Shown one piece after another: positions 49,059-64,000 of a stretch of DNA of 64,000 bases. Source of the DNA: Blastococcus aggregatus (GTDB taxonomy: Bacteria; Actinomycetota; Actinomycetes; Mycobacteriales; Geodermatophilaceae). The stretch covers positions 434,001-498,000 of the forward strand of contig NZ_OBQI01000002.1 of the NCBI RefSeq assembly GCF_900221005.1, read 5' to 3'. Under the pieces are notes generated by a model. The model made no database searches. It saw only the letters and a program-made list of their open reading frames with translations, and was not told the origin of the DNA. Position numbers and translations under genes: made by a program. How positions within the stretch are numbered: position 1 is the first letter of the stretch; every line of letters starts with the position of its first letter.

Positions 49059-49210
49059 GGGAGGACCTCCGCGGTCAGGGCAGGAGGCCGCCGGCGCTCG
49101 CCGTGCCCTGCACCTGGTCGGTGCCCTCGTAGGACCGCGGCCGGCCCACGTGGTCGCGCAGGACGGCGTGCAGGCAGCGCCGGCCTGGTGAGCCTCACCA
49201 CTCCCCCGGC

Positions 49211-49272
49211 ATACCCCCGGGGGAATGCCTTCGATGGGGCTACCGTTGGTCCGTGCATACCCCCCCGGGTAT
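49211..49272 (+). promoter_or_regulatory. Promoter flanked by two CstR/CsoR-type operators
   Basis: Site 1 at 49211-49226 (ATACCC-CCGG-GGGAAT) and site 2 at 49257-49272 (ATACCC-CCCC-GGGTAT) share a 16-bp design. Between them is a TACCGT box (49241-49246) that fits a -10, so site 1 would cover the -35 area and site 2 the initial transcribed region. Expected to repress the rhodanese operon until persulfide (or metal) inactivates the repressor. The 150 nt before site 1 hold no gene that I can support. Confidence 0.75.
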
Positions 49273-49296
49273 AGCCACCGACCTTCAGGAGCTGAC

Positions 49297-49611
49297 GTGA
49301 TCCCCGAGATCGACCAGAACACCTTCGCGGCCCGGCTCGCCGAGGGCGACGCCCACGTCGTCGATGTGCGCGAGGCGCGCGAGTACCGCCCCGGCCACGT
49401 CCCCGGCGCACAGAACCTTCCGCTGAGCGTGCTGCCGGCCCGGCTGCCGGAGCTGCCGAAGGACCGGCCGGTCTACGTGATCTGCCAGGCAGGCGGTCGC
49501 AGCGCCCAGGCCACCGAGCTGATGCGCGCCGTCGGCATCGACGCCACCAGCGTCACCGGCGGCACCGGCGCCTGGATCGAGTCCGGCCGGCCCGTCGCCA
49601 CCGCCGCCTGA
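49297..49611 (+). CDS. Single-domain rhodanese
   Basis: 104 aa from a GTG at 49297 with AGGAG ribosome site. VVDVREAREYRPGHVPGAQNLPLS is the rhodanese CH2A-type segment; catalytic Cys63 lies in VICQAGGRSAQA. Likely moves sulfane sulfur between thiols (persulfide relay). First gene behind the double operator; the CstB-like gene follows 37 nt later, so the two are probably one transcript. Confidence 0.93.
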   Translation: MIPEIDQNTFAARLAEGDAHVVDVREAREYRPGHVPGAQNLPLSVLPARLPELPKDRPVYVICQAGGRSAQATELMRAVGIDATSVTGGTGAWIESGRPVATAA

Positions 49612-49648
49612 CCCCGACCACGACACCACGGCCCCGAGAGGAAACCCG

Positions 49649-51037
49649 ATGACCATCACCGTCCTCCCCCTGGACACCCCCGGCCTGGGTGACCGCACGT
49701 ACCTCGCCCACGACGGGGAGGTCGCGCTCGTGGTCGACCCGCAGCGCGACTACGACCGCGTCCTCGGCATCGCCGAGGCGGCCGGTGTCCGCATCACCCA
49801 CGTCTTCGAGTCCCACATCCACAACGACTACGTCACCGGCGGACTGGAACTGGCCCGCGAGGTCGGCGCCCGGTACCTGCTGAACGCCGACGACCCGGTC
49901 TCCTTCGAACGGACCGGGGTCTCCGACGGCGACGTCGTCGAGGTGGGGGCCCGGATGCGCGTGCGGGTGCTGCTCACCCCCGGTCACACGCACACCCACC
50001 TGTCGTTCGCACTGGAGGCCGACGGCGAGTCGGTGGCGGTGTTCACCGGCGGCTCGCTGCTCTTCGGCTCCACGGGGCGCCCGGACCTGCTCGGTCCGGA
50101 TCACACCCAGACCCTTGCCCACGCCCAGTGGCACTCCGCCCAGCGGCTGGCCGCCGAGCTCCCGGACGAGACCGCCGTCTACCCGACGCACGGCTTCGGC
50201 AGCTTCTGCTCGGCCACCCAGTCCGGCGGCACCGCCAGCACCATCGGGCAGGAGAAGCTCGCCAACCCCGCGCTGACCACCGACGAGGCCCGCTACGTCG
50301 AGGACCTCCTCGCCGGCCTGGATGCCTACCCGGCCTACTACGCGCACATGGGCCCGGCCAACTCCGCCGGACCCGGGGAGGCCGACCTCTCCCTGCCGAC
50401 CGAGGCGGACCCGGACGAGCTGCGCCGGCGCATCGAGGCCGGCGAGTGGGTCGTCGACCTGCGCACCCGCACCGCCTTCGCCGCCGGGCACGTCGGCGGG
50501 ACGGTCAACTTCGGCCTGGACGGCCAGTTCGTCACCTACCTCGCCTGGCTCATGCCGTGGGGCACCCCGGTGACCCTGCTCGGCGAGACCGCCGAGGACG
50601 TCGCCGAGGCGCAGCGCGAGCTGGTCCGCGTCGGCATCGACCGGCCGGCCGCGATGGCCACCGGCAGCGTCGAGGACTGGTCCGGCGGGCAGCCGCTGCG
50701 GGCCTACCGCACCGCCACCTTCGCCGACCTCGCCGCCGAGGGCGCCGCCGGCCGCGGCCCCGTCGTCCTCGACGTGCGGCGCAACCAGGAGCGCGCCGAG
50801 CGGCACATCGCCGGTTCGCTGCACATCCCGATCCACGAGGTGCTCGAGCGCCTCGACGAGGTCCCGGCCGGGCCGGTGTGGGTGCACTGCGCCGGCGGCT
50901 ACCGCGCCGGCGTCGTCGCCGCCCTGCTCGACGCCCACGGCATCGACGTCGTCGCCATCGACGACTCCTTCGACAACGCCGGCCCCGCCGGTCTCCACCT
51001 CTCCACCGACGCGGTCAGGCAGGAGATCCCCGCATGA
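49649..51037 (+). CDS. Persulfide dioxygenase-rhodanese fusion (CstB-like)
   Basis: 462 aa. N-terminal metallo-beta-lactamase fold (about 1-215) with the iron ligands in FESHIHNDYVTGG and TPGHTHTHLS and the Asp/His later in the FTGGSLLFGSTGRPDL and YPTHGFGSFC segments. A first rhodanese-like domain (about 258-350) lacks a catalytic Cys; a second (about 365-462) has Cys414 in VHCAGGYRA. The same three-part plan is known from CstB, which oxidises low-molecular-weight persulfides to thiosulfate. Good AGAGGA ribosome site. Its stop overlaps the next start (ATGA). Confidence 0.92.
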   Translation: MTITVLPLDTPGLGDRTYLAHDGEVALVVDPQRDYDRVLGIAEAAGVRITHVFESHIHNDYVTGGLELAREVGARYLLNADDPVSFERTGVSDGDVVEVGARMRVRVLLTPGHTHTHLSFALEADGESVAVFTGGSLLFGSTGRPDLLGPDHTQTLAHAQWHSAQRLAAELPDETAVYPTHGFGSFCSATQSGGTASTIGQEKLANPALTTDEARYVEDLLAGLDAYPAYYAHMGPANSAGPGEADLSLPTEADPDELRRRIEAGEWVVDLRTRTAFAAGHVGGTVNFGLDGQFVTYLAWLMPWGTPVTLLGETAEDVAEAQRELVRVGIDRPAAMATGSVEDWSGGQPLRAYRTATFADLAAEGAAGRGPVVLDVRRNQERAERHIAGSLHIPIHEVLERLDEVPAGPVWVHCAGGYRAGVVAALLDAHGIDVVAIDDSFDNAGPAGLHLSTDAVRQEIPA

Positions 51038-51609
51038 GCACTCCCACCGTCGACGCCCCCACCCTCGCCGAGCGCCTCGGCAACGGCTCCGACCCCACGC
51101 TGATCGACGTCCGCACTCCGGCGGAGTTCGAGGCCGGCCACATCGCGGGCGCCGTCAACGTCCCCCTCGACGAGCTGAAGGCTTCGCTCGACCAGCTCCG
51201 CACGGTCCTGGACGATCACCACGACGTCGTCCTGGTCTGCCGCTCCGGCGCCCGGGCGGGACAGGCGCAGGAGGCTCTGCAGGCAGCCGGCCTCACCTCC
51301 CCCACCGTCCTCTCCGGCGGCATCGTGAACTGGGAGAGGACCGGCGGCGCGGTGAACCGTGGCCGCCAGAGCTGGGAGCTCGAGCGCCAGGTCCGCCTGG
51401 CCGCCGGGTCGCTCGTCGCCGCCGGGGTCCTGGCCAGCACGGTCGCGCCGAAGGCGAAGTGGCTGTCCGGGGCCGTCGGGGGCGGGCTCGCCGTCGCCGC
51501 CCTGACCGACACCTGCGCCATGGGCATGGTGCTGGCGCGGATGCCGTGGAACAGGCGCGGCGCCCGCCCCACCGGCTCTGCTCTGGACCAGCTGACCAGG
51601 GAGAGGTGA
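51034..51609 (+). CDS. Rhodanese with C-terminal membrane (DUF2892-like) domain
   Basis: 191 aa. Rhodanese part about 8-110: LIDVRTPAEFEAGHIAGAVNVPL and Cys69 in LVCRSGARAGQA, then VLSGGIVNWERTGGAVNRG. The C-terminal part has two hydrophobic segments (about 127-145 and 150-168) ending in TDTCAMGMVLARMPWN, like DUF2892 membrane domains often fused to or next to rhodaneses. Probably a membrane-attached sulfurtransferase feeding the TauE transporter that follows. Confidence 0.9.
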   Translation: MSTPTVDAPTLAERLGNGSDPTLIDVRTPAEFEAGHIAGAVNVPLDELKASLDQLRTVLDDHHDVVLVCRSGARAGQAQEALQAAGLTSPTVLSGGIVNWERTGGAVNRGRQSWELERQVRLAAGSLVAAGVLASTVAPKAKWLSGAVGGGLAVAALTDTCAMGMVLARMPWNRRGARPTGSALDQLTRER

Positions 51610-51614
51610 CGGGC

Positions 51615-52493
51615 ATGCTGATCGCGCTCACCGTCGCGCTGGCCGTCGTCGTCGGGGTGACCCTGGGTCTTCTCGGCGGTGGCGGGTCGATCCTGATGGT
51701 GCCGCTGCTGGTCTACGTGGCCGGCATGGACGCCAAGGAGGCGATCGCCGCCTCGCTCGTGGTCGTCGGCGTCACCGCGGCGGTGAGCGTGGTCGGCCAC
51801 GCCCGCGCCGGGCGCGTCCGCTGGCGCACCGGGCTGCTCTTCGGGACTGCCGGCATGGCCGGCGCGCTGGCCGGCGGGTTCGTCGGCGGCCACCTTCCCG
51901 GGCAGCTGCTGATGATCGCCTTCGCCCTCATGATGGTCGCCACGGCGGTGGCCATGCTGCGCGGCCGCCGGGACGTCGACCCGGCCAAGGCGCACGCCGA
52001 GCTGCCCGTGGGCCGGGTCCTGCTGGACGGCGTCGTCGTCGGCCTGGTCACCGGCCTGGTCGGCGCGGGTGGCGGATTCCTCGTCGTCCCCGCGCTGGCG
52101 TTGCTCGGCGGGCTGCCGATGGGCGTCGCCGTGGGCACCTCGCTGCTGGTCATCGCCATGAAGTCCTTCGCCGGGCTGACCGGCTACCTGGCCACCGTGT
52201 CGATCGACTGGGCCCTCGTGGGTGCGATCACCGCCGCCGCCGTCGTCGGGAGCCTGCTCGGGGCCCGACTGGTCGACCGCATCCCGGCCGACGCGCTGCG
52301 CCGGGCGTTCGGGTGGTTCGTCCTGACCATGGGCGCCTTCGTCCTCGTCCAGGAGGCACCCGAAGGCGCGCGGCTGCCGGCTCTGGTCGCCGTGCTCGGC
52401 GTGGCCGGCGCGATGGGGACCTGCACGGCGTTCGTGCCCCGCTGCCCGCTCCGCCACGCCGGGATCGTCGGCCCGCGCCCCGCCGGGGCCTGA
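51615..52493 (+). CDS. TauE/SafE family sulfite/sulfur-anion exporter
   Basis: 292 aa. Two inverted repeats of the TauE fold: [31 protein letters not shown] and GLVGAGGGFLVVPALALLGGLPMGVAVGTS. About eight spans. Likely exports sulfite or thiosulfate made by the CstB-like enzyme. The end carries TCTAFVPRCPLRHAG, two cysteines outside the usual fold. It starts 5 nt after the rhodanese stop. Confidence 0.92.
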   Translation: MLIALTVALAVVVGVTLGLLGGGGSILMVPLLVYVAGMDAKEAIAASLVVVGVTAAVSVVGHARAGRVRWRTGLLFGTAGMAGALAGGFVGGHLPGQLLMIAFALMMVATAVAMLRGRRDVDPAKAHAELPVGRVLLDGVVVGLVTGLVGAGGGFLVVPALALLGGLPMGVAVGTSLLVIAMKSFAGLTGYLATVSIDWALVGAITAAAVVGSLLGARLVDRIPADALRRAFGWFVLTMGAFVLVQEAPEGARLPALVAVLGVAGAMGTCTAFVPRCPLRHAGIVGPRPAGA

Positions 52494-52554
52494 CCCAGAC
52501 GGCCGCGCGGTGCGTCCGGGAATGCCCACGCACCGCGCGGCGCTCCAGGACGCA

Positions 52555-52570
52555 GTACCCGCCGGGGTAT
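52555..52570 (+). promoter_or_regulatory. CstR/CsoR-type operator upstream of the repressor gene
   Basis: GTACCC-GCCG-GGGTAT, same 16-bp layout as the sites at 49211, 49257 and 62539, with one arm mismatch. It lies 20 nt before the repressor ATG, so autoregulation is expected. Confidence 0.7.
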
Positions 52571-52572
52571 GA

Positions 52573-52869
<297 letters not shown>

Positions 52870-52872
52870 CCC

Positions 52873-54237
52873 CTAGCCGTCGGCGGGTCGCACCTCGAGT
52901 CCGGCCTTCCCGGCCGACTCGTAGGAGTCGTCGACGAGGACGACGGACCGGCCGGGCCGGTCCAGCACCGACGCGGCGATCGACGCCCGGTAGCCGGAGC
53001 CGCAGTAGACCCACACCTCGCCCTGCGGGACCTCGTCGAGCCGGTCGGCGAGCTCGTGCAGCGGGATGTGCTGCGAGCCGCGGACGAAGCCGTTCGCCCG
53101 CTCGTCGTTGCGCCGGGCGTCGAGGACCTGCACCGGCCCGCGCTCCATCGCCTCGGCCAGGCCGGCGAAGTCGGACACCGGGTAGGACCGCAGGGGCCGC
53201 CCGTCGGCGAGGTCCTCGATGTCCCCGATCGCAGCACCGGCCAGCTCGTCGACGCCGATCCGCACCAGCTCGCGACGGGCCTCGGCCACCTGCTCCTCGC
53301 TCTCGCCGATCAGCGTCAGCGGCTCCCCGTAGCGGTAGAGCCAGCCCAGGTAGGTCACGAAGTTGGTGCCGAGCTCGACGTTCATCGAGTCGGTCAGGTG
53401 GCCGGCCGCGAACGCCGTGCGCTCCCGCAGGTCGACCACCCACTCCCCCGCCTCGATACGCCGGCGCAGCTCCGCGGGGTCGACCTTCTCGGGCATGGAG
53501 AGGTCGACCGGTGCCGGGCCGCGCCGGTTGATCGGTGCCATGCGTGCGTAGTAGGCCGGGTAGGCGTCCAGCCCGGCGAGCAGGGTGTCGACGTAGTCCT
53601 GCTCGTCCTGCGTCAGCGCCGGGTTGACCCGCTGCTGCTCACCGATGGTCGACGACGTCCCACTGGTCGGGGTGGCCGAGCAGAAGCTGCCGAAGCCGTG
53701 GGTCGGGAACACCTGCGCCCCGTCCGGGAGCTCCCCGGCCAGCCGCCGCACCGAGTGGTACTGGGCGTGGGTCAACTCGTCGGTGGCCTCCGGGCTGACC
53801 AGGTCGGTGCGGCCCGTGGCGCCGTAGAGCATCGATCCCCCGGTGAACACCGCCTCGACCTCTCCATCCCCGTCGGCGAGCGCGTAGCTGACGTGGTGGT
53901 GGGTGTGGCCCGGGGTGTGCAGCACCCGCAGGCGCAGCCGGCCGGCCTCGACCACGTCGCCGTCCGAGACCGCCACGTGCTCGACCTCGGCATCGCTCCC
54001 ACTCGGCAGGACGTAGTCGGCGCCGGTCTCCCGGGCGAGCTCCGGGCCACCGGTCACGTAGTCGTTGTGCACGTGCGTCTCGAGCACGTGCGTCACCCGC
54101 ACCCCTCGGCCGGCCACCACCTCCAGCACGCGGTCGATGTCGCGCTGGGGATCGATCACGACGGCCACCTCGCCGTCGTCGATCAGGTAGCTGCGGTCGC
54201 CCAGGCTGGAGGTCTCGATCGTCTGCACCTCGAACAT
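52873..54237 (-). CDS. Persulfide dioxygenase-rhodanese fusion (CstB-like), second copy
   Basis: 454 aa, full-length paralogue of the protein at 49649-51037. MBL part: LETHVHNDYVTGG, TPGHTHHHVSYAL, FTGGSMLYGATGRTDL. First rhodanese domain without Cys (VVDLRERTAFAAGHLTDSMN), second with Cys412 in VYCGSGYRASIA. The long shared segment ALTxDExxYVxxLLAGLDAYPAYYAxM shows close common ancestry. It follows the DUF302 gene by 1 nt on the minus strand, so they form an operon separate from the first copy. Confidence 0.92.
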   Translation of the reverse strand: MFEVQTIETSSLGDRSYLIDDGEVAVVIDPQRDIDRVLEVVAGRGVRVTHVLETHVHNDYVTGGPELARETGADYVLPSGSDAEVEHVAVSDGDVVEAGRLRLRVLHTPGHTHHHVSYALADGDGEVEAVFTGGSMLYGATGRTDLVSPEATDELTHAQYHSVRRLAGELPDGAQVFPTHGFGSFCSATPTSGTSSTIGEQQRVNPALTQDEQDYVDTLLAGLDAYPAYYARMAPINRRGPAPVDLSMPEKVDPAELRRRIEAGEWVVDLRERTAFAAGHLTDSMNVELGTNFVTYLGWLYRYGEPLTLIGESEEQVAEARRELVRIGVDELAGAAIGDIEDLADGRPLRSYPVSDFAGLAEAMERGPVQVLDARRNDERANGFVRGSQHIPLHELADRLDEVPQGEVWVYCGSGYRASIAASVLDRPGRSVVLVDDSYESAGKAGLEVRPADG

Positions 54238-54238
54238 G

Positions 54239-54628
54239 TCAGCTCCCCAGTGCGGCCAGCGCCGCGTCGAGACGGCGTCCGGCCTCGTCGGCCATGGGCT
54301 GGAGCTCGGGCCGCCCGGTCATCGACACCATGGTCTGCGGATCCAGGACCTGCACCGTCGAGCCATCGCCGGCCTGGCTGACGACGACGTTGCACGGCAG
54401 CAGGACGCCGACGCCGCGGTCCACCTCCAGCGCCTGCTGCGCGAGGTCGGGGGCACAGGCGCCCAGGATCAGGTAGGGCTCCATCTCCACACCCCGCTTC
54501 TGCCGCAGGGTTGCCTGCACGTCGATCTCGGTGAGGATGCCGAAGCCCTGCTCGGCCAGGGCCTCCCTGGTGCGCGCCACCGCCTCCGCGAACGGGACGG
54601 CGAGGTCGAGGGTGCGTCGGTACTCCAT
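54239..54628 (-). CDS. DUF302 family protein
   Basis: 129 aa from an ATG at 54628 with AAGGAA ribosome site. MEYRRTLDLAVPFAEAVARTREALAEQGFGILTEIDV and YLILGACAPDLAQQALEVDRGVGVLLPCNVVV are typical of DUF302, a family often found with rhodaneses and persulfide enzymes. Two Cys (ACAP and LPCNV) could carry sulfur. Function unknown. An in-frame open path continues upstream into the peroxidase gene because of that gene's frameshift; the ATG with its ribosome site is clearly the real start. Confidence 0.88.
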   Translation of the reverse strand: MEYRRTLDLAVPFAEAVARTREALAEQGFGILTEIDVQATLRQKRGVEMEPYLILGACAPDLAQQALEVDRGVGVLLPCNVVVSQAGDGSTVQVLDPQTMVSMTGRPELQPMADEAGRRLDAALAALGS

Positions 54629-54933
54629 GCGCAGTTCCTTCCGGTCCGTCGCCCGACGCTGCGCAGCGGCCCTCCAGGTCGGACCGCAGGTCGGAGCGGC
54701 GAGGTCTCCCTCCCGGTACCCGCAGCGCCGGCCTCGTACCGCCGACCCTGTCCGGTCCGGGAAGTGTCCCGACTGCCCACCTGAACTGGGACGTTGCCCC
54801 CGTCCTGGATTTCTGCGTAATCTCGACCTGTGTACTGGGGTAATCGACCGAGCAGGCCCGCGTTCTGCGTGTGCCTCCTCGGGGTGACCCCACTGCTGGT
54901 CGACGACCGACTCTGTCCCGGCGGCACGCCCTC

Positions 54934-54955
54934 CCGCTGAGCGAACGCTCAGCGG
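54934..54955. promoter_or_regulatory. Perfect 22-bp palindrome, TetR-type operator candidate
   Basis: Ten-bp arms (CCGCTGAGCG and its complement) around a central AA. The core GAGCGAACGCTC is typical of TetR-family operators. No TetR gene lies in this window. As RNA it could also form a hairpin with almost no loop, which makes DNA-level binding more likely. Confidence 0.5.
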
Positions 54956-54992
54956 CCCCGTGTCCGCCCGCACGTCCGTCGAAGGATTCCCG

Positions 54993-55163
54993 TTGACCGA
55001 GATCGCCGCGCCCGTTCCCGCAGCCCTGCCGTCCGCCCGGGTGACCGACGCGGTCACGCCGACCACGTCGGCCGCGAACAGCTCCGCCCCGGCCCGCGGA
55101 TCGCGGCTGCGGCGCCTGGCCTCCGCCGTCGTGGACACGCACCGGGCTGCCGTCCCGTTCTGA
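54993..55163 (+). CDS. Possible small protein (56 aa)
   Basis: TTG start at 54993 with GAAGGA 6 nt upstream. The product is Ala/Thr/Pro rich with a basic stretch (RGSRLRRLASAVVD) near the end. A GTG at 54960 is in frame. No known family. Support comes from the ribosome site and the palindrome 38 nt upstream; codon use alone is not decisive in this GC-rich DNA. It converges with the peroxidase gene. Confidence 0.3.
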   Translation: MTEIAAPVPAALPSARVTDAVTPTTSAANSSAPARGSRLRRLASAVVDTHRAAVPF

Positions 55164-55193
55164 CCGTGCGCGTCGGGTTCCCCGGAACCCGGA

Positions 55194-56401
55194 TCAGCTC
55201 TCCAGGAGCACCTGCCCCAGGTGCTCTCCCGGAGCGACCCCGGCAGGACGGCGAAGACCGCCGATCCGATCGGCGTCGTCCACCGGTTGAGCAGGTCGAC
55301 CTCGGCCAGCCGCTGCTGCACGGGCACGAACTGGGTGCGCACGTCGGCCTGGAAGGAGATGAACACCTGCCCGCTGTCGCTGAGCTGCCCCGGTGGCGGG
55401 GGGACGTCGTAGTGGTACGGGCGACGCAGCATCCGCTCCCTGCGGTCGAGCGGTGCTGCTCGGCCGATGTGGGAGGCAGGGTCGATGACGGGCAGTCCGT
55501 CCGGGCCGACCGCGGTGAGGTCCGCCGGGTGCTGCTCCTCGCTGCCCGTCAACGGTGCTCCGGTGGCGAGCCGTCTGCCGATCACCCGCTCCTTCGCGGG
55601 CCGGTCCAGCTCGTCCCACGTGTCCAGGTGCATGGCGATGCGGCGCACCACCATCCCGGTGCCGCCGCGCAGCCACCCGGGCCCGTCGTCCCCGATCCAC
55701 ACGAGGTCGTCCTCGGCGCCGTCGACGGGTTGCACCGTGCCGTCGACCTGGCCCATGAGATTGCGCTGGGTGAAGCCGCCGGGCAGTGATCCGGCGCTGT
55801 TGCGGAATCCGTGCTGCACCCACCGCAGCGAGCCGAACGGCCGGGCCTGCTTCAGCAGCGTCCGCACCGCATGCGCGACGGTGAGCGCGTCGTCGGCACA
55901 CACCTGAGCGACCAGGTCACCACCCGACCAGCGCTGCTCCAGCCGGTCGATGCCGAAGGCGGGCAGCGGCGCCAACCAGTCCGGCCGGCGGCCGGCCATC
56001 CCGATGCGGTCGAACGCACCCGGCCCCAGCCCGACGGTGACCGTCAGGTTGGCCGGTACGGCGGCCAGCTCGGGTTCGGTGTCCCCGAGCGCGGGCGCCC
56101 CCGCGGTCAGCCGCTCGGCGTCCTCGGTCCAGACCCGCAGCAGGCGGGCGAGGTCGGCGGGACCGGTGCCCTCGGCGAGGTCCACGGCCACCAGCGTCGC
56201 CGCCGCCTGCGGTGGCGTCCGCACGCCGGCCTGGTGGAGACCGCGGAACGGCACCGTCGCCCGTCCGACGGCGTCCTCGGGCGGCGTCGCCGGCCGGCCG
56301 GGGTCAGCTCCCAGCGCCGCCCCGGCCAGGGCGACGGTGGCGCCGCCCGCCACGGCTCCCCCGCCGACGAGGAACCCCCGTCGACTCAGCTGCGAGACCA
56401 T
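55194..56401 (-). CDS. Dyp-type peroxidase (EfeB-like, Tat-exported), apparent frameshift near 3' end
   Basis: Heme peroxidase. Twin-arginine signal at the start (LSRRGFLVGGGAVAGG). Dyp motifs: GQVDGTVQP (GxxDG, distal Asp), WLRGGTGMVVRRIAMHLDTWDEL, EEQHPADL (proximal His region) and ASHIGRAAP. The main frame runs to GSAVFAVLPG; the natural end VAPGEHLGQVLLES then stop lies one frame over. Adding one G to the C-run at 55238-55241 (plus strand) would join them into a 402-aa protein. The span is 1208 nt, one base short of whole codons. Without correction the frame stays open as far as the DUF302 gene. Either a sequence error or a recent mutation. Last gene of a seven-gene operon. Confidence 0.85.
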
Positions 56402-56964
56402 CAGCCGTCGTCCTCCGCGCCGTTCCCGGGGGTGTAGGACTCCTCGGCACCGGAGAACTCCCGCCCGTTCGCGGTGATCTCGATCGTCCCGCCGCCGGCG
56501 GTCTCGAAGGTGACGGTCACGTCGTCCCCCACGGTCACGGGCGCGTCCAGGCCCAGCAGCATGATGTGGTCCCCGCCGGGCCTCAGCTCGTACTCGCCGC
56601 CGGCGGGGACGACGATGCCGCCGGCCTTCTCCTGCATGACCATGGCGCCGTCGGCACCCATGACCGTCTCGTGCATCTCGACCGTCCGGGCCACGGGCGA
56701 GCTCGCGGCGACCAGCGTCACGTCCTCGTCGCCGCGGTTGGTCAGCGTCCCGAACACCCCGGTCATCCCGGTGTCCGCCGCCTTCACCCAGCCGTCCGCC
56801 AGGGCCACCGACACCTCCGGCGTGGCCGCGTCGGCTTGCGCCGCCGGAGCGGACGGGTCCTTCGTCGCGGTGTCGGCGCCACAACCGACGAGTGCGAGAG
56901 CCAGGGCCATGCCGCCGACGGCGAGCTGGACGACGGGGCGGCGGGACCGGGACGAGGAGGTCAT
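56401..56964 (-). CDS. PCu(A)C-type periplasmic copper chaperone lipoprotein
   Basis: 187 aa. Lipobox LALVGCGAD. PCuAC domain (about 50-165): SVALADGWVKAADTGMTGVFGTLTNRGDEDV, Cu(I) ligands in VEMHETVMGADGAMVMQ and GGDHIMLLGL (the H-x10-M-x21-H-x-M type set). Delivers Cu(I), typically to the CuA site of cytochrome oxidase. A 25-residue acidic tail follows. Starts inside the copC stop and overlaps the peroxidase start by 1 nt. Confidence 0.93.
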   Translation of the reverse strand: MTSSSRSRRPVVQLAVGGMALALALVGCGADTATKDPSAPAAQADAATPEVSVALADGWVKAADTGMTGVFGTLTNRGDEDVTLVAASSPVARTVEMHETVMGADGAMVMQEKAGGIVVPAGGEYELRPGGDHIMLLGLDAPVTVGDDVTVTFETAGGGTIEITANGREFSGAEESYTPGNGAEDDG

Positions 56965-57551
56965 CGAAGTTCTCCGGGATCGGGGCGGGGGGACGCCGTG
57001 ACCGTGGTCGGGACGGCGGACCTGCGACGGCGCCAGACCAGCGCCGGCAGGAGGAACAGGGCGGCCAGGACGGCAGCGGCGACGGCGAACCAGGCCGCTC
57101 CGGGCCGGCCGGACGAGGTGGACGACGGTTCCGTCGCTCCTGGCGCAGCCGCCGCAGTGGGAGTGGCGAGCGCCGCACCCCCGACGGTGAAGGCGAACGT
57201 CCCGGAGGCGGGATGACCGTCATCGACCACCACGCGCCAGCTCACGGTGTAGCTGCCGTCGGAGATGTCCGGCACCAGCGCCTGGACGACGACACCGTCG
57301 GCCGCCTGCGGCGGGCCATCGACGACCGAGGTGCCGTCGGCGGCACGGACGACCACGAGCGGGTCGATGGGGGCGAGTCCGCGCGTGACGTGGAGTCGGA
57401 CCTCGGCCGGCGGGCTGTCCAGTGCCTGACCGGCAGCCGGCGCGCTCGAGGCCAGGACGTCGTCGTGCGCCCGCGCGGAGCCGGCGGACACCAGCACGAC
57501 GAGGACGGTGGCGACGGCAACCGCTGCGAGCCGGCGCCGGCGGGCAGTCAC
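56961..57551 (-). CDS. copC: CopC-domain copper-resistance protein with C-terminal membrane anchor
   Basis: 196 aa. Signal peptide ending at SARA, so the mature protein begins with His, the Cu(II) ligand of CopC. CopC fold about 30-125: HDDVLASSAPAAGQALDSPPAEVRL and VDDGHPASGTFAFTV, giving the Asp and His of the same site. A Pro/Ala linker and one membrane span (about 150-170) followed by RRRR anchor it. No CopD domain is fused. 4-nt overlaps with both neighbours. Confidence 0.93.
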   Translation of the reverse strand: MTARRRRLAAVAVATVLVVLVSAGSARAHDDVLASSAPAAGQALDSPPAEVRLHVTRGLAPIDPLVVVRAADGTSVVDGPPQAADGVVVQALVPDISDGSYTVSWRVVVDDGHPASGTFAFTVGGAALATPTAAAAPGATEPSSTSSGRPGAAWFAVAAAVLAALFLLPALVWRRRRSAVPTTVTASPRPDPGELR

Positions 57552-58198
57552 CGTTCCGCCCGGCCGGCGAGGCGCCGCCAGAACACGGTTCCGCCCGCCA
57601 GGGCGAGCACCCCCAGGGCGGTGGCTGCCGCGTACCAGGCAGCCCCGGCACCCGATCGGCTGTCGGCGCGGTCCGAGGGGACGGCCACCGGACCACGGTC
57701 GGACTCGGCGTCGCCGGCCCCGCGACCGACGCCGAGCACCAGCACGGGGGCAGGCATCGCAGGATCGGGGACTGCTGCGGTCGCCGGCTCGATCCAGGCG
57801 TCCTCCCGGCCGTCGGCGTACCGCTGGACGGTGGGGAGGAGCAGTTCCCCGTCCGTCGTGGGCAGGGCAGGGACTGCGATCGAGTACTCCGCGTCCCGGC
57901 CCACCGGCAGGGGCTTCCCGCCGACGGTGACCACGTCGTCAGCGACCGTCAGCCTCCATCCCGGGGGGCCCGATTCGAGGACGAGACCATCGCCGGGCAT
58001 CCCTCGGGGGAACCGCGTCGCGACCTCGACGATCCCGGAGGACGGGTGCTCCGCGGCCGCGGAGAACCGCAGGGTCGCCGGATCACCGGCCTCCGCGCCG
58101 CCGGCCGTCACCTCGACGTGCGCGAACGCGGGCGCAGCGACGGCCAGGACGAGGGCCACCGCCATCGGCGGCACGCCGAACAGCGCGCGGACTCTCAT
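57548..58198 (-). CDS. YcnI-family (DUF1775) copper-binding protein
   Basis: 216 aa. Signal peptide ending APAFA, then His as first mature residue (HVEVTAGGAEAGDPATLRF), as in YcnI, where that His helps bind Cu(II). DUF1775 fold about 28-150 with VATRFPRGMPGDGLVLES and GWRLTVADD. C-terminal linker and membrane span. YcnI genes usually travel with CopC, as here (4-nt overlap). Confidence 0.92.
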   Translation of the reverse strand: MRVRALFGVPPMAVALVLAVAAPAFAHVEVTAGGAEAGDPATLRFSAAAEHPSSGIVEVATRFPRGMPGDGLVLESGPPGWRLTVADDVVTVGGKPLPVGRDAEYSIAVPALPTTDGELLLPTVQRYADGREDAWIEPATAAVPDPAMPAPVLVLGVGRGAGDAESDRGPVAVPSDRADSRSGAGAAWYAAATALGVLALAGGTVFWRRLAGRAER

Positions 58199-58746
58199 GT
58201 CGTAGAAGTCGTCCCGCACGACGGTGGAGTTCCACACGGCGTAGAAGAGTCGTGTGATCCAGCGCACGGCAGCGCCGGCACGGCGCAGGCGATCTGCCCC
58301 CGCAGCCGGCGAGCCAGCGCCCAGGCGAGCAGCACGACAGCGAGCAGCGACAGCACCGGCTGGACGGGCTCGAAGTACGTCATCGCGCCGCTGGCCCCGA
58401 GCGCCAGGAGGACGAGCTTGTTGCAGACCGGACAGCCCACGGCGAAGAAGGTCAGCAGTCCGCCGGCACCGCCCCACAGCCGCGATCGGCGCTCCTCCTC
58501 GGCCGGCGCCGGGTCGGGCGAGCCCGGCTCCCGCACGTAGGTGGCCACGAGCAACCCGGCGAGCGCCGCGCTCACGAGCAGCGCCGGCCAGGACCACCAC
58601 GTGGGCGGGACCTCCCGGCCGAAGACGGGCGTGTCGATGAGGTCGGTCGGCACGGCGACCACCAGCACGCCGACGACGGTCATCGCGAGCGCGGTGAGCC
58701 CGCGACGGCGGTCCCAGGACCGGAGCGCCAGGTACATCGAGGTCAT
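58195..58746 (-). CDS. Membrane protein with CPVC motif
   Basis: 183 aa with about four membrane segments. The motif FFAVGCPVCNKLVLLALGASGAMTYFEPVQP places a CxxC at the membrane face, like a thiol-redox or metal site. Two further Cys pairs lie in the tail (QIACAVPALPCAG and TPCGTPPSC). I cannot name a characterised family; similar proteins occur next to DsbA/CcdA genes in actinobacteria. Overlaps both neighbours by 4 nt, so it probably works with CcdA (electron supply) or YcnI/CopC (copper). Confidence 0.8.
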   Translation of the reverse strand: MTSMYLALRSWDRRRGLTALAMTVVGVLVVAVPTDLIDTPVFGREVPPTWWSWPALLVSAALAGLLVATYVREPGSPDPAPAEEERRSRLWGGAGGLLTFFAVGCPVCNKLVLLALGASGAMTYFEPVQPVLSLLAVVLLAWALARRLRGQIACAVPALPCAGSHDSSTPCGTPPSCGTTSTT

Positions 58747-59648
58747 CGGGGTTCCTGTCGGTCGAGCGCGTCGATGATGTCGTCGTCCGGCCGGGCAGCG
58801 GGGGCCTGGGTGCGGAGCCGGTGCAGGCGGCGCGCGATGACGCCGAGGAGGAGGGCCGCGGCGGCCGCCAGCACCCAGACGTCGAGGTGGCGCGCGGACA
58901 TCTCGGTGATCCAGCTCTGCGCCTCGAACTCGAGGTCCGCGGTGTCCCCGAACCCGAGGACCCCTGTGATGCCGGCGGTGCCGTCGAAGCGGAGGAAGAG
59001 CCAGCCGACGACGACGAACAGCCCGCCGGAGATCAGCTGGGTCGTGTGCAGCTGCCGGCCGCCGATGCGCAGCGGGCGGCCACGGAGCCACCGGCGGCGG
59101 CCGAGGTCGAACCGGTCCCAGAGCAGCGCGAGGACGAACATCGGCGCCGCCATCCCGAGTGCGTAGACGGCCAGCAGAACCCCTCCGCCCACGACGCCGC
59201 CGTCGGTCGCGGCGAGGGTGAGGACGGCGCCGAGGATGGGTCCCGAGCAGAACCCGGCGAGGCCGTAGACCGCACCCAGCGCGAAGGTCCCCGCCCACCC
59301 GCGGGCCCGGCCCGGGGTGGCGACCCGGGCCCGGAGCCGGTCGGCTCCGGGCAGGCCGAAGCCACCACCGAGGATCTGGACCACGCCGAGGGCGATGATC
59401 GTCCAGCCGGCGACGGCGATCAGCACCTCGCGGTGGCCGTAGAAGAGCGTCGAGACCAGCGCCGACCCCACCCCGAGGGGCACCAGGGTCAGGCAGAGCC
59501 CGAGCCAGAAGACGACCGTGCGGGCGAGCAGCTCGCGCGGGTGGGCGAACGCGTAGGCGAAGAACGACGGCAGCAGGAGCGCGCTGCAGGGGCTGATGAG
59601 CGTCAGCGCGCCGCCGAGGAACGCCGCCGCGAGCCCCAGCTCACCCAT
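58743..59648 (-). CDS. CcdA/DsbD-type thiol-disulfide electron transporter
   Basis: 301 aa. DsbD transmembrane-domain layout: LISPCSALLLPSFFAYAF with the first Cys and GLAGFCSGPILGAVLTL with the second, in about six spans; a seventh span at the C-terminus (about 255-275). Carries reducing electrons across the membrane to extracytoplasmic thiols, e.g. for cytochrome c or CuA assembly. It overlaps the DsbA-like gene by 8 nt. Confidence 0.92.
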   Translation of the reverse strand: MGELGLAAAFLGGALTLISPCSALLLPSFFAYAFAHPRELLARTVVFWLGLCLTLVPLGVGSALVSTLFYGHREVLIAVAGWTIIALGVVQILGGGFGLPGADRLRARVATPGRARGWAGTFALGAVYGLAGFCSGPILGAVLTLAATDGGVVGGGVLLAVYALGMAAPMFVLALLWDRFDLGRRRWLRGRPLRIGGRQLHTTQLISGGLFVVVGWLFLRFDGTAGITGVLGFGDTADLEFEAQSWITEMSARHLDVWVLAAAAALLLGVIARRLHRLRTQAPAARPDDDIIDALDRQEPR

Positions 59649-60405
59649 CGTCCCCGGCCGCGTCGGCCGCCTGCTCGATCGCCGCGACGAACGTGTCGGT
59701 GGGCTGCGCGCCCATGATCGGCCGGCCGTTCAGGAGGAAGGCGGGCGTACCGGAGATGCCGAGCTGCTGCCCCTCCCGGAAGTCGGCGGTGACCGCGTCG
59801 AGGGTCTCCTGCGACTGCATGGTCGCGGTGAACCGCTCGACGTCGAGGTCGAGATCGCGGGCGAGCCCGATCAGCACGTCGTCGGTCAGCTGACCGCTGT
59901 TCGGCGGGAAGCCCAGCGCGTAGACCGCGTCGTGGAACTCCCAGAAAGCACCCTGCTCGCCCGCCGAGCGTGCGGCACGTGCCGCTTGCACCGACTGCTC
60001 ACCGAAGTAGGGGAAGTCCCGCCACTCCAGCCGCAGGATGCCGGCCTCGACGAACCGCTCGACCAGCACCGGTTCGGTCTCCTGGGCGAACTTCGCGCAG
60101 AAGGGGCACTGGAAGTCCTCCCACATGACCAGCACGACCGGCGCATCGGCGTCCCCCTGCGCGAGCGGGTCGCCAGGGACCCGCCGGGCGAGGGTGTCCG
60201 ACGGCTGCGCCGTCCCACCCTCCTGGCTCACGTCCGCGACCGGGCCGCCGCCGTCGTTCCCGCCGCGACCGACACCCCAGACGACGGCGACGACGGCGAG
60301 CGCGACGACCACGGCCAGGGCGATGAGCGGTCCGCGCAGGGCCTGCGCCGTCGAGGATCGACCGGCCTCGGCTTTCGACCGCGGAGATGGAGCAGAGCTG
60401 GGCAC
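59641..60405 (-). CDS. DsbA/thioredoxin-like extracytoplasmic oxidoreductase
   Basis: 254 aa from a GTG at 60405. Cytosolic lead, one membrane span (about 25-46), then a DsbA-fold domain: VVLVMWEDFQCPFCAKFAQETEPVL with Cys100-Pro-Phe-Cys103, and the cis-Pro loop GISGTPAFLLNGRPIMGAQP. The CPFC pair makes it a thioredoxin-like thiol oxidase or reductase; CcdA next door suggests it is kept reduced. First gene of the seven-gene unit ending with the peroxidase. Confidence 0.93.
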   Translation of the reverse strand: MPSSAPSPRSKAEAGRSSTAQALRGPLIALAVVVALAVVAVVWGVGRGGNDGGGPVADVSQEGGTAQPSDTLARRVPGDPLAQGDADAPVVLVMWEDFQCPFCAKFAQETEPVLVERFVEAGILRLEWRDFPYFGEQSVQAARAARSAGEQGAFWEFHDAVYALGFPPNSGQLTDDVLIGLARDLDLDVERFTATMQSQETLDAVTADFREGQQLGISGTPAFLLNGRPIMGAQPTDTFVAAIEQAADAAGDDG

Positions 60406-60441
60406 GAGTACTTCCCCCTGGAGCGTCGATGGCACCGATGG

Positions 60442-60476
60442 TTGTCCGGACAACTCGGCTACAGTTGACCGTACAA
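60442..60476. promoter_or_regulatory. Double GntR/HutC-type operator in divergent promoter
   Basis: Perfect 12-bp palindrome TTGTCCGGACAA at 60442-60453 and a related copy TTGACCGTACAA at 60465-60476, matching at 10 of 12 positions, 23 bp apart. The design fits HutC-type GntR operators (GT-n-n-n-n-AC core). A TACAGT box at 60460-60465 could be the -10 for the gntR gene. The site could control both the DsbA operon and gntR. Confidence 0.65.
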
Positions 60477-60526
60477 GAAGTCCGGAGGCCGGCGACCGCC
60501 TCCCCGCGACCCGATCTGGAGGAGCC

Positions 60527-61342
60527 ATGCCGGAGCTCCCGCGCACCCCACCGGCAGCGCGGCTGGACCGCCGTGCGAGCACACCGCTGTGGCGCCAGCT
60601 GGCCGTCGATCTCCGCGACCGGTTGGACGAGGGTGAGTTCGCCGGGGGCTTCCCCGGCGAGGTCGAGCTCGGTCTCCGGTACTCGGTCAGCCGGCACACG
60701 GTGCGCGAGGCGTTGCGCCAGCTCCGTGCCGACGGCGTGATCAGCACCGGGCGCGGACGGCGACCCCGGCTCGCCGCGCCCGACCCGGTCATCGCCCAGC
60801 CCACGGGGATCGCCTACTCGCTCTTCTCCTCCGTGGAGGCCTGCGGGCTGGTGCAGACGTCGGTGGTGCGGGTGCTGACCGTGCGGGCGGACGGCGTCAT
60901 CGCCCCACGACTGGGGCTGGAGGAGTCGACGCCGCTGGTCCACCTCGAGCGCCTGCGCCTGGCCGACGGGCGGCCACTGGCGCTCGACCGCGTGTGGCTC
61001 CCTGCCTCGATCGGCGAGCCCTTGCTGGGCGTCGACTTCCGCCGCACCAGCCTGTACGAGGAGCTCGCCCGGACCGGCATCCCGGTCACTGGCGGCCAGG
61101 AGACCGTCCGAGCGGTCATCCCGGGCAGGGCCGAGCACGACGCCCTCGACCTGCAGCCGCCGTCGGCGGTGTTCTCCGTCGAGCGGACGGGCACGAGCTC
61201 CGGCGTCCCCGTCGAGTGGCGGCACACCCTGATCCGGGCCGACCGTTTCACCCTGACCAGCACGCTGGACCCTCGGCCAGGAGCCACCGAGCCGCGCAAC
61301 GGTGACACCCCCACCTCAGCGCTCACGCCGAGCTTCGGCTGA
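60527..61342 (+). CDS. GntR-family regulator, HutC/UTRA type
   Basis: 271 aa from an ATG at 60527 with GGAGGA. Winged helix (about 18-85): TPLWRQLAVDLRDRLDEGEFAGGFPGEVELGLRYSVSRHTVREALRQLRADGVI. UTRA effector domain (about 100-260) with VHLERLRLADGRPLALDRVWLP and SLYEELARTGIPVTGG. The ligand is unknown. The divergent DsbA-CcdA-copper operon and the downstream rhodanese-TauE genes are the obvious candidates for control. Confidence 0.92.
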   Translation: MPELPRTPPAARLDRRASTPLWRQLAVDLRDRLDEGEFAGGFPGEVELGLRYSVSRHTVREALRQLRADGVISTGRGRRPRLAAPDPVIAQPTGIAYSLFSSVEACGLVQTSVVRVLTVRADGVIAPRLGLEESTPLVHLERLRLADGRPLALDRVWLPASIGEPLLGVDFRRTSLYEELARTGIPVTGGQETVRAVIPGRAEHDALDLQPPSAVFSVERTGTSSGVPVEWRHTLIRADRFTLTSTLDPRPGATEPRNGDTPTSALTPSFG

Positions 61343-61361
61343 CCCACCGGAAGGAACGACG

Positions 61362-61715
61362 ATGACCGAGCCGTCCTCCACCACCCGGCTCCCCGACCTG
61401 GACCCGGGCCAGGCCGCCGAACTGCTCGAGCGGGGCGAGGCCGTGATCCTCGACGTCCGGGAGCCGGCGGAGTGGGCAGCGGGCCACGCCCCGCAGGCCC
61501 GACACCTCCCGCTCGGTCTGCTCACCCCGGAGGCGGTCCCGCAGGACCGCCCGGTGATCGCCGTCTGCCGGTCGGGCAACCGCTCGGGCCAGGCCGCCGA
61601 CACCCTGGCCGCAGCCGGCAGGCGAGTGCACAACCTGGCCGGCGGCATGAAGGCGTGGACACGGACCGGTCTCCCGGTCGTCACGGACGACGGGAAGCCC
61701 GGCACCGTCGCGTGA
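61362..61715 (+). CDS. Single-domain rhodanese
   Basis: 117 aa from an ATG at 61362 with AAGGAA. ILDVREPAEWAAGHAPQARHLPLG, catalytic Cys69 in AVCRSGNRSGQAADTLAAAG, NLAGGMKAWTRTGLPV. Starts 19 nt after gntR and overlaps the TauE start by 1 nt, so all three are likely co-transcribed. Second rhodanese-TauE pair in the window, parallel to 49297-52493. Confidence 0.93.
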   Translation: MTEPSSTTRLPDLDPGQAAELLERGEAVILDVREPAEWAAGHAPQARHLPLGLLTPEAVPQDRPVIAVCRSGNRSGQAADTLAAAGRRVHNLAGGMKAWTRTGLPVVTDDGKPGTVA

Positions 61716-62506
61716 TGCTCGCCGCCACGCTCGGGCTGGGACTGGTCATCGGCCTGAGCCTGGGCGCACTGGGCGGCGGCGGCTCCATCCTCACCGTGCC
61801 CGCCCTGGTCTACGTCATCGGCCAGGACGCCCGGGCCGCCACGACCAGCAGCCTGTTCATCGTCGGGATCACCTCGGTCATCGCCGCGCTCGGCCACGCC
61901 CGCAGTGGACGGGTGCGCTGGGGCATCGGCATCGTCTTCGGCGTCACCGGCATCGCGGCCGGCTTCGCCGGGACCGCGGTCAACCGGCTCGTGGACCCCG
62001 ACGTCCTCCTGCTCGCCTTCGCCGCGGTGATCGTCGTCGCCGCTGTGGGCATGCTCCTGAACAGCCGACACGAGGAGGAGCCCGCACCACAGGAGGGCGA
62101 CGCACCGCAGCCCGCTCGCCGCTGGACAGCCGGGCGGGTCGGCCGGATCGCCGGTGCCGGCCTGCTCGTCGGCTTCATGACCGGCTTCTTCGGCGTCGGC
62201 GGCGGCTTCGTGATCGTCCCGGCACTCACCCTCGCCCTGGGCCTGTCCATGCCACAGGCGGTCGCCACGTCGCTGGTCGTCATCTCGATCAACTCCGCAG
62301 GTGCACTGCTGGCCCGCGCGGGCACTGCGCACTTCGACTGGGCGGTGATCGTCCCGTTCACGCTGGCCGCTGTCGCCGGCTCTCTGGGCGGGAAGATGGT
62401 CGCCGACCGCGTCTCCGGCACGACCCTCACCCGCGCCTTCGCCGTCCTCCTGCTCGCCGTGGCCGTCTACACCGGCACGTCGAGCCTGATCTCGCTCCTC
62501 GGTTGA
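61715..62506 (+). CDS. TauE/SafE family exporter, second copy
   Basis: 263 aa from the ATG at 61715. [31 protein letters not shown] and [31 protein letters not shown] are the two TauE repeat motifs. About eight spans, with a charged cytosolic loop ([19 protein letters not shown]) in the middle. Same family as 51615-52493 but lacks that protein's Cys-containing tail. Likely exports a sulfur anion. Confidence 0.92.
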
Positions 62507-62538
62507 CCCGGGAACAGGACGCACCCCGTATCCGGTTA

Positions 62539-62554
62539 ATACCCCCGTGGGTAT
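62539..62554 (+). promoter_or_regulatory. CstR/CsoR-type operator upstream of thioredoxin
   Basis: ATACCC-CCGT-GGGTAT, a perfect copy of the 16-bp design found at 49211, 49257 and 52555. It lies 22 nt before the thioredoxin ATG, between the TauE stop and the ribosome site GAAAGGA. This ties the second sulfur cluster to the CstR-like repressor encoded 10 kb away. Confidence 0.72.
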
Positions 62555-62576
62555 CAGCCGACGAAAGGACCCCATC

Positions 62577-62945
62577 ATGAGCTCGACCGCTCTCACCGCA
62601 TCGACCTTCCAGGAGACCGTCAGCGGCGACGGCATCGTGCTGGTCGACTTCTGGGCCGGCTGGTGCGGTCCCTGCCGGGCATTCGCGCCCGTCTTCGAGG
62701 CCGCTGCAGAGCGCCACCCCGACATCGTCTTCGGCAAGGTCGACACCGAGGCCGAGCAGGACCTGGCCGCCGCGGCCGGGATCCGGTCGATCCCGACGCT
62801 GATGGCCTTCCGCGACGGGGTCCTCGTGTTCGCACAGCCCGGCGCTCTGCCCGCCGAGTCGCTCGAGGAGCTCGTCACCGCGGTGCGTGCGCTGGACATG
62901 GACCAGGTGCGCGCCGACCTGACCGAGCAGCGCCGCACGGCCTGA
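62577..62945 (+). CDS. Thioredoxin
   Basis: 122 aa. [31 protein letters not shown] with Cys30-Gly-Pro-Cys33 and the cis-Pro loop [15 protein letters not shown]. Reduces disulfides and persulfides in the cytosol. The ATG at 62577 has AAAGGA upstream; the frame opens earlier but that part overlaps the operator. Placed under a CstR-type operator, it may serve to remove sulfane sulfur from proteins. Confidence 0.95.
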
Positions 62946-62970: not shown

Positions 62971-64000
62971 GTGACCATCGGCGACGACGAGGCCGGCGAC
63001 GGTGGTGGGGCGGCGACCTCACCACCGTCGCCGATCCGGCTGGGGCTGCGCGAGAACGCCGCCCAGTTCGCGCTGCTGGTCGCCGTCAACGCCCTGGTCG
63101 GCGGCATGGTCGGCCAGCAGCAGACCGTGCTGCCGCTGCTCGCCGAGGACGAGTTCGGGCTGACCGGCTACACCGTCATCTTCACCTACGTCGCAGCCTT
63201 CGGGGTCACCAAGGCCGCCGCCAACTGGTTCGCCGGCACCCTGTCGGACCGCTACGGCCGCAAGCCCGTGCTGCTCGCCGGATGGCTGTTCGCCGTCCCC
63301 GTGCCGCTGATGCTGATCGCCGCTCCGAACTGGGGCTGGGTCGTGGCGGCGAACGTGCTGCTCGGCATCAACCAGGGGCTCACCTGGTCCACCACCGTGG
63401 TGATGAAGATCGACCTGGTGGGTCCTCGCCGGCGCGGGCTGGCGATGGGACTGAACGAAGCAGCCGGTTACGGCGCGGTCGCGGTCACCTCGCTGATCGC
63501 CGGCTACCTCGCCGGCGAGTTCGGCCTGCGCCCGGCGCCCTTCCTGCTCGGCCTCTTCTACATCGCCCTGGCCCTGCTGCTCTCCGGCGCGTTCGTGCGG
63601 GAGACCCGCGCCCACGCCCACCTCGAGGCGGGGCAGCACACGCCCCGGGCCGACGGTCTGCACGACCACCTGCACGCCGGGCTGACCGATCGCCAGATCT
63701 GGGCGCAGACCAGCCTGAGGGAGCCCGCGCTGTCCTCGGCCAGTCAGGCCGGGCTGGTGAACAACCTCAACTTCGGCCTCTCCTGGGGCCTGTTCCCGCT
63801 GCTGTTCGCCACCGCCGACCTGGCGGTCGGCCAGATCGGCCTGCTCTTCGCCCTCTACCCGGGGGTGTGGGGGGTGGGCCAGCTGATCACCGGCGCCCTG
63901 TCCGACCGGGTCGGGCGCAAGCATCTCGTCACCACGGGCATGGCCACCCAGGCCGCCGCCCTCGCCGTCATCGCCGCCTCCGACAGCTTCGGCGGCTGGG
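62971..64000 (+). CDS. MFS transporter (partial, runs off window)
   Basis: At least 343 codons from a GTG at 62971. Major facilitator fold: the loop 2-3 motif GTLSDRYGRKPVLLAGW and its repeat GALSDRVGRKHLVTTGMA, about 10 spans so far. A His-rich cytosolic loop (AHAHLEAGQHTPRADGLHDHLHAG) separates the halves and could bind metal. Substrate unknown; it follows thioredoxin by 25 nt and may be part of the same transcript. Confidence 0.9.
   Translation, partial: MTIGDDEAGDGGGAATSPPSPIRLGLRENAAQFALLVAVNALVGGMVGQQQTVLPLLAEDEFGLTGYTVIFTYVAAFGVTKAAANWFAGTLSDRYGRKPVLLAGWLFAVPVPLMLIAAPNWGWVVAANVLLGINQGLTWSTTVVMKIDLVGPRRRGLAMGLNEAAGYGAVAVTSLIAGYLAGEFGLRPAPFLLGLFYIALALLLSGAFVRETRAHAHLEAGQHTPRADGLHDHLHAGLTDRQIWAQTSLREPALSSASQAGLVNNLNFGLSWGLFPLLFATADLAVGQIGLLFALYPGVWGVGQLITGALSDRVGRKHLVTTGMATQAAALAVIAASDSFGGW

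Follow-up and report, generated by a model that had tools for sequence, protein, structure and literature searches.

Predicted CstR-type operators at sulfur genes of Blastococcus aggregatus extend to thioredoxin and may be set apart from copper-type operators by spacer length

Results

The 64,000 nucleotides of Blastococcus aggregatus analysed here (the window; bases 434001-498000 of contig 8, in a genome of 4.62 Mb and 13 contigs) contain two clusters of sulfur genes and four copies of a 16-bp palindrome, ATACCC-N4-GGGTAT, which we read as operators of a CstR-type, i.e. sulfane-sulfur-sensing, repressor of the DUF156 family. The first cluster comprises, on the + strand, a single-domain rhodanese with a GTG start (49297-49611; PF00581), a lactamase-fold plus rhodanese protein resembling type III persulfide dioxygenase (PDO) (49649-51037; PF00753 and PF00581), a rhodanese with a YgaP-like membrane segment (51034-51609; PF00581 and PF11127), a TauE/SafE sulfite exporter (51615-52493; PF01925) and the repressor itself (52591-52869; PF02583, 81.6 bits against a cut-off of 22.8). 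A second PDO-like lactamase-fold plus rhodanese gene (52873-54237, - strand; PF00753 and PF00581) is convergent and has no operator of its own at up to one mismatch. By Pfam, the repressor is linked to rhodanese, PDO-like and TauE genes; we take the name PDO from the account of ScPDO in PMC7533328. The second cluster, also on the + strand, holds a rhodanese (61362-61715; PF00581), a second TauE/SafE exporter (61715-62506; PF01925), a thioredoxin with the motif WCGPC (62577-62945; PF00085, and above the curated cut-off of TIGR01068) and a major facilitator superfamily (MFS) transporter that continues past the window end (62971-64000; PF07690).

Two predicted operators lie in the promoter of the rhodanese/PDO operon. 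Operator I (49211-49226) reads ATACCCCCGGGGGAAT, with one mismatch, and operator II (49257-49272), 46 bp downstream from start to start, matches perfectly. This pair recurs in relatives, and the letters of operator I, including the deviation, are the same in three of the four full-length relative promoters shown (four of five counting that of the window); the fourth, from a second copy of the locus on contig 11, reads ATGCCCCCGGGGGAAT. The predicted operator of the repressor gene (52555-52570) is GTACCCGCCGGGGTAT, which begins GTACCC and has its single mismatch in the outer base; the contig 11 copy and Blastococcus sp. TF02A-30 have exactly these letters. The predicted thioredoxin operator (62539-62554) is a perfect match that begins 38 bp before the ATG, and in the genus copies shown its arms do not change, apart from one outer base in Blastococcus mobilis, while the N4 core varies. 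The original prediction, made from the letters of the window, had placed four sites of identical layout ahead of a rhodanese operon, the repressor gene and a thioredoxin gene. Coordinates and Pfam identities bear out all four positions and the genes that follow them; identical layout was slightly overstated, as two sites are perfect and two have one mismatch. Read by eye, several type-2 cstR promoters have the operator between TTGCAC-like and TAnnnT-like boxes, which would fit repression by promoter occlusion.

Shuffling the window 100 times with its dinucleotides preserved gave no site at up to one mismatch in any shuffle, against the four observed. Relaxed forms are not enriched, neither the 16-mer at up to three mismatches (7 found in the window, 5.69 expected) nor the 14-mer core at up to one mismatch (41 genomic sites, fewer than the 64 of a reversed control), and we therefore used only the 16-mer at up to one mismatch and exact spacer forms. 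The genome scan that the original prediction had called for yields, at up to one mismatch, ten sites against none for the reversed pattern, of which nine accompany CstR-type, rhodanese/PDO or thioredoxin genes. Four of these nine are in the window and three in the contig 11 copy; contigs 4 and 6 each add one, at a further CstR-type locus. Both sulfur clusters are duplicated on contig 11 by segmental duplication at 86-94% identity (93.7% for 49165-52869, 86.0% for 52893-55164 and 89.5% for 58259-62945), and the intervening 55165-58258 and the MFS gene have no match in the contig 11 stretches compared. The two copies of the thioredoxin operator share their arms and differ in the four central bases (CCGT vs ATAT).

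Copper-sensing CsoR proteins coordinate copper through a Cys-His-Cys site, and Cu(I)-CsoR of Streptomyces lividans has the His ligand. In the window repressor, as had been predicted, two cysteines stand 29 residues apart and Gly occupies the position of the copper-ligand His, four residues before the second cysteine. Six DUF156 genes were found in the genome, four with Gly at this position and two with His. The second regulon copy and the four paralogous repressors are additions to the original prediction; which of the four acts at which site we can only infer. The best match of the repressor among solved structures is 7mq1, deposited as the copper-sensing repressor CsoR; 7MQ2, of the same sequence, is named CstR in PMC9774590. 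The sites, genes, conservation and spacer split are computed here.

The half-sites alone cannot identify the sensor, because copper CsoR has TACCC/GGGTA arms as well. The window sites, at the repressor's own promoter and at its target promoters, are of the ATACCn6GGTAT type, with N4 between CCC and GGG and not the N5 of copper CsoR. We took a census of spacers in which family membership, not the motif, decided which genes were fetched, and exact TACCC-Nx-GGGTA was sought within 450 bp upstream; it replaced earlier spacer counts that included motif-fetched loci. The 108 loci consisted of the genome's own 6, 30 of 56 high-scoring matches (>92 bits), all 56 lower-scoring full matches and 16 from a phylum sample, and 101 were kept, leaving out a duplicate (L324) and loci that did not parse (L299, L308, L341, L344, L360 and L361); six fragments of at most 63 bits had not been included. 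Genes without the His had N4 upstream in 37/64 cases and N5 in none, and His-type (copper) genes had N5 in 22/37 and N4 in none. Exact spacers of any other length between 0 and 12 were absent upstream of the 101 genes. Counted by distinct protein segments, the figures are 31/57 for N4 at non-His genes and 18/33 for N5 at His-type genes; a Fisher value from a smaller census was not used because it treats relatives as independent. By residue, N4 was found at 36/59 Gly/Ala genes, at the single Thr gene and at none of four with Arg or Val. A tree of that smaller census (54 non-His and 37 His genes, without 12 of the 16 phylum-sample loci) separates the two types, and the dividing branch is weak (77/73). 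The tree is compatible with one division, so the N4/N5 split may have arisen once, long ago, and been retained.

Loci were also fetched by motif. Within the genus, all 16 N4 16-mer loci fetched from the 21 sites outside our own genome lie at CstR-type, rhodanese/PDO or thioredoxin genes. Among 20 fetched genus N5 loci (one from our own genome), 13 have a P-type ATPase or copper-type CsoR match, one has a lipoprotein match only, six have none of the panel genes and none is CstR-type. The copper-side labels of ATPase and lipoprotein are our own naming; Pfam confirms E1-E2 ATPase, multicopper oxidase and SHOCT domains, and the lipoprotein only below threshold. In a sample of 60 genomes from the phylum, the N5 association is largely upheld: 43 N5 loci divide into 26 with copper-side genes only, three with thioredoxin-like genes only, one with both and 13 with neither. 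Three genomes of this sample (G107, G119 and G126) hold low-scoring DUF156 genes, and their N4 loci are at sulfur genes in 9/9 cases.

For thioredoxin, we examined the best 80 relatives in named genomes (more than 80 exist) from -200 to +30 of the start; among the matches listed, those closest to the window protein are from Blastococcus. A perfect 16-mer precedes 21/80, and 27/80 have one at up to one mismatch, in Blastococcus, Nocardioides, Streptomyces, Microbacterium, Knoellia, Intrasporangium, Ornithinimicrobium, Cryobacterium, Dormiibacterota and others. Elsewhere in these loci, over 1.36 Mb, the looser 14-mer was counted 26 times, often also in CstR clusters. A DUF156 gene best matching the CstR query lies within the fetched flanks (up to 10 kb) in 17/80 thioredoxin loci, and the copper CsoR query gives the best DUF156 match in 0/80. 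Of the eight thioredoxin-domain genes in the B. aggregatus genome, the operator is present only at the two paralogues next to these sites. Counted by hand, a Gly/Ala-type DUF156 gene is present in 19/21 genomes with the thioredoxin site and in 14/23 without it (with one further gene among these 23 that did not parse); this covers 47 of the 80 genomes, including 21 of the 27 with the site, leaves aside most Nocardia and several metagenome-assembled genomes, and excludes from the comparison three loci with N4 sites farther off (L067, L087 and L095). In several Nocardia loci (L064, L068, L071, L077, L078 and others) a half-site-like string, often ending GTGGTGGGTAT, lies at about -115 to -160 relative to the thioredoxin gene; it stands in the operator's place and may be an operator in decay or a promoter box.

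Discussion

Our computational data support the original prediction of a CstR-type regulon that includes thioredoxin: sulfur genes account for 9/10 genomic and 16/16 genus sites, and the thioredoxin link recurs across Actinomycetota. We put at about 0.82 the probability that the window sites are operators of a CstR-type DUF156 repressor whose regulon takes in its own gene, the rhodanese/PDO/rhodanese/TauE operon and thioredoxin. The close published precedent, absent from the original prediction, is ScCsoR of Streptomyces coelicolor, which senses sulfane sulfur, binds a 16-bp ATACCn6GGTAT sequence and is released from DNA by polysulfide, with both cysteines needed for release (PMC7533328). It too is a DUF156 protein with a cysteine pair 29 apart (37/66), it controls persulfide dioxygenase, TauE and rhodanese, and the pdo promoter has two ScCsoR sites, at -48 and -9 from the start (PMC7533328). 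The passages of that paper name four target genes, thioredoxin and MFS not among them, whereas B. aggregatus has an operator at thioredoxin, its clusters in two copies and two further CstR-type loci.

CstR of Staphylococcus aureus is likewise a CsoR-family persulfide sensor repressing sulfur genes (PMC9774590, PMC5480029), but its direct control is suggested to be limited to a single operon, cst (cstA, cstB, sqr) (PMC5480029); SQR was not among the genes searched for here. TTHA1953 of Thermus thermophilus is a Cys-regulated CsoR-family repressor of sulfur genes with the thioredoxin SoxW among its targets, although its motif is another and its pathway is Sox (PMC10318464). Cu(I)-CsoR of S. lividans shares the family, a type 2 operator and the TAC/GTA inverted repeat, but has an N5 spacer and copper-efflux targets (PMC3902906). 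The repressor and operator described here belong to a kind already known; what is added is the thioredoxin arm, the duplication and the N4/N5 split.

By analogy with ScCsoR and S. aureus CstR, the repressor would, at low persulfide, occupy ATACCC-N4-GGGTAT at its own, the rhodanese-operon and the thioredoxin promoters. When persulfides or polysulfides rise they would modify both cysteines, and the repressor would leave the DNA. Sulfane sulfur could then take an oxidative exit, in which PDO would turn it to sulfite for export by TauE, or a reductive exit, in which thioredoxin would reduce it to H2S. In S. coelicolor, overexpression of thioredoxin is reported to raise H2S release. One kind of sensor would in this way govern both the oxidative and the reductive disposal of sulfane sulfur in actinomycetes. 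Neither a CstR-type thioredoxin operator in actinomycetes nor the N4/N5 split was stated in the search listings and paper passages covered by our literature searches; work on the S. aureus CstR/CsoR pair could hold a statement of the latter.

The split between N4 and N5 may follow sensor type. At either end it agrees with published spacers, N5 for S. lividans Cu(I)-CsoR (PMC3902906) and n6 between ATACC and GGTAT, i.e. N4, for ScCsoR (PMC7533328), and with the finding that adding or removing one spacer base shifts TTHA1953 binding about 10- or 15-fold (PMC10318464). We lean towards the broader proposal that in Actinomycetota N4 is read only by CstR-type repressors and N5 only by copper CsoR, so that sulfur and copper responses would be kept separate despite several DUF156 paralogues (six in this genome), with thioredoxin as the reductive arm of the sulfur regulon. 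One base of spacing would then be a letter-level rule telling sulfur from copper operators with shared half-sites, and would allow either regulon to be annotated in related genomes by pattern search.

Several observations weigh against these conclusions. For the repressor, no NCBIfam model exceeds its cut-off, and the highest-scoring one, that of the copper sensor RicR, reaches 46.7 bits against a cut-off of 175. The four non-His genes with Arg or Val in place of the His lack an exact N4 site, so the spacer rule may be confined to the Gly/Ala clade and its close kin. The N4 association is diluted in the phylum sample, where 28 of the 40 N4 loci (covering 52 of 53 sites outside our own genome) have no panel gene nearby, against 11 with sulfur genes, of which three (L217, L247 and L272) are so labelled by a thioredoxin-like match alone (44-57% identity), and one with copper genes. 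One sampled genome (G117), with four N4 and four N5 sites and a low-scoring DUF156 gene that encodes Val in place of the His (contig 7, 48851-49087), has no sulfur-panel gene near its four N4 loci, which also speaks against a simple spacer rule. Of the best 80 thioredoxin relatives, 53 have no site at up to one mismatch, including all Nocardia rows, although four of these (L067, L087, L095 and L101) have N4 14-mers farther upstream. The genome-level co-occurrence of the thioredoxin site with Gly/Ala-type DUF156 genes supports the regulon link only weakly, and it has exceptions: B. mobilis has a site with one mismatch and yielded only a His-type gene, and in another genome (G042, locus L124) the low-scoring DUF156 gene has His. 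The trx genes of S. coelicolor are reported to be under AdpA. Finally, the tenth genomic site (contig 5, 168458-168473; ATACCCCGGGGGGTAC) lies upstream of small genes and a multicopper oxidase gene, and a further N4 site on contig 8 (500121-500136; GTACCCCCGGGGGTAC), 3.6 kb past the thioredoxin site, likewise precedes small genes, one with a SHOCT domain, and a multicopper oxidase. Either the sulfur sensor also controls the oxidase or the N4 rule has exceptions. In a relative (G020), an N4 site of the multicopper-oxidase kind lies about 740 bp from a rhodanese operator.

These two oxidase sites also speak for the possibility that the window sites are operators of the genome's own copper-sensing CsoRs and that the genes form a copper response, as do the half-sites common to copper CsoR operators and, by eye, what seem to be copper-type genes between the two clusters. 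Such a reading is very unlikely given the spacers: His-type csoR genes have N5 in 22 of 37 cases and never N4, 13 of the 20 genus N5 loci have a P-type ATPase or copper-type CsoR and none a CstR-type gene, and in the phylum sample markers of the copper side alone accompany 26/43 N5 loci vs 1/40 N4 loci. Alternatively, a regulator outside DUF156 could read the thioredoxin site, leaving CstR in control of the rhodanese/PDO operon and itself. AdpA, which is reported to bind seven trx promoters in S. coelicolor, would be a precedent, but the consensus reported for it is unlike the thioredoxin site, which instead has the arms and spacer of the sites at the cstR and rhodanese promoters, and the nearby CstR-type gene in 17/80 thioredoxin loci argues in the same direction; we consider this hardly likely.

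That the sites are functionless relics or a dispersed repeat is extremely unlikely for this genus, in which their promoter positions are similar and their arms conserved while the flanks have diverged. The thought is prompted by a distant genome of 2.7 Mb (G113), in which ATACCC-N4-GGGTAT occurs 15 times without CstR-linked genes and in shared translated context that suggests a dispersed repeat; it supplies eleven of the phylum-sample N4 loci besides the nine of G107, G119 and G126. We considered a large N4 regulon in G113 and rejected it on account of this repeat-like context, the lack of sulfur or CstR-linked genes and the presence of one DUF156 gene.

With a CstR-type regulon as the preferred reading, the MFS gene is a candidate further member. 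A gap of 25 bp separates it from the thioredoxin stop, and relatives of it follow thioredoxin in two genus loci (L047 and L052), in Blastococcus (L059 and L061) and in Cryobacterium (L128), but not in the contig 11 copy or in L060. In two Arthrobacter loci (L067 and L087), MFS relatives of 77% identity lie after a PDO-like gene with two N4 sites in front of it. The short gap and this placement make co-regulation with thioredoxin plausible, and the two genes may be co-transcribed; none of the 25 NCBIfam models listed for the MFS protein passes its cut-off. Pfam also finds a DUF302 gene and a GntR/UTRA regulator among the window genes. In Nocardioides soli (L062, 6183-7320), a thioredoxin gene, a CstR-type gene and a second thioredoxin gene stand in a row behind one operator.

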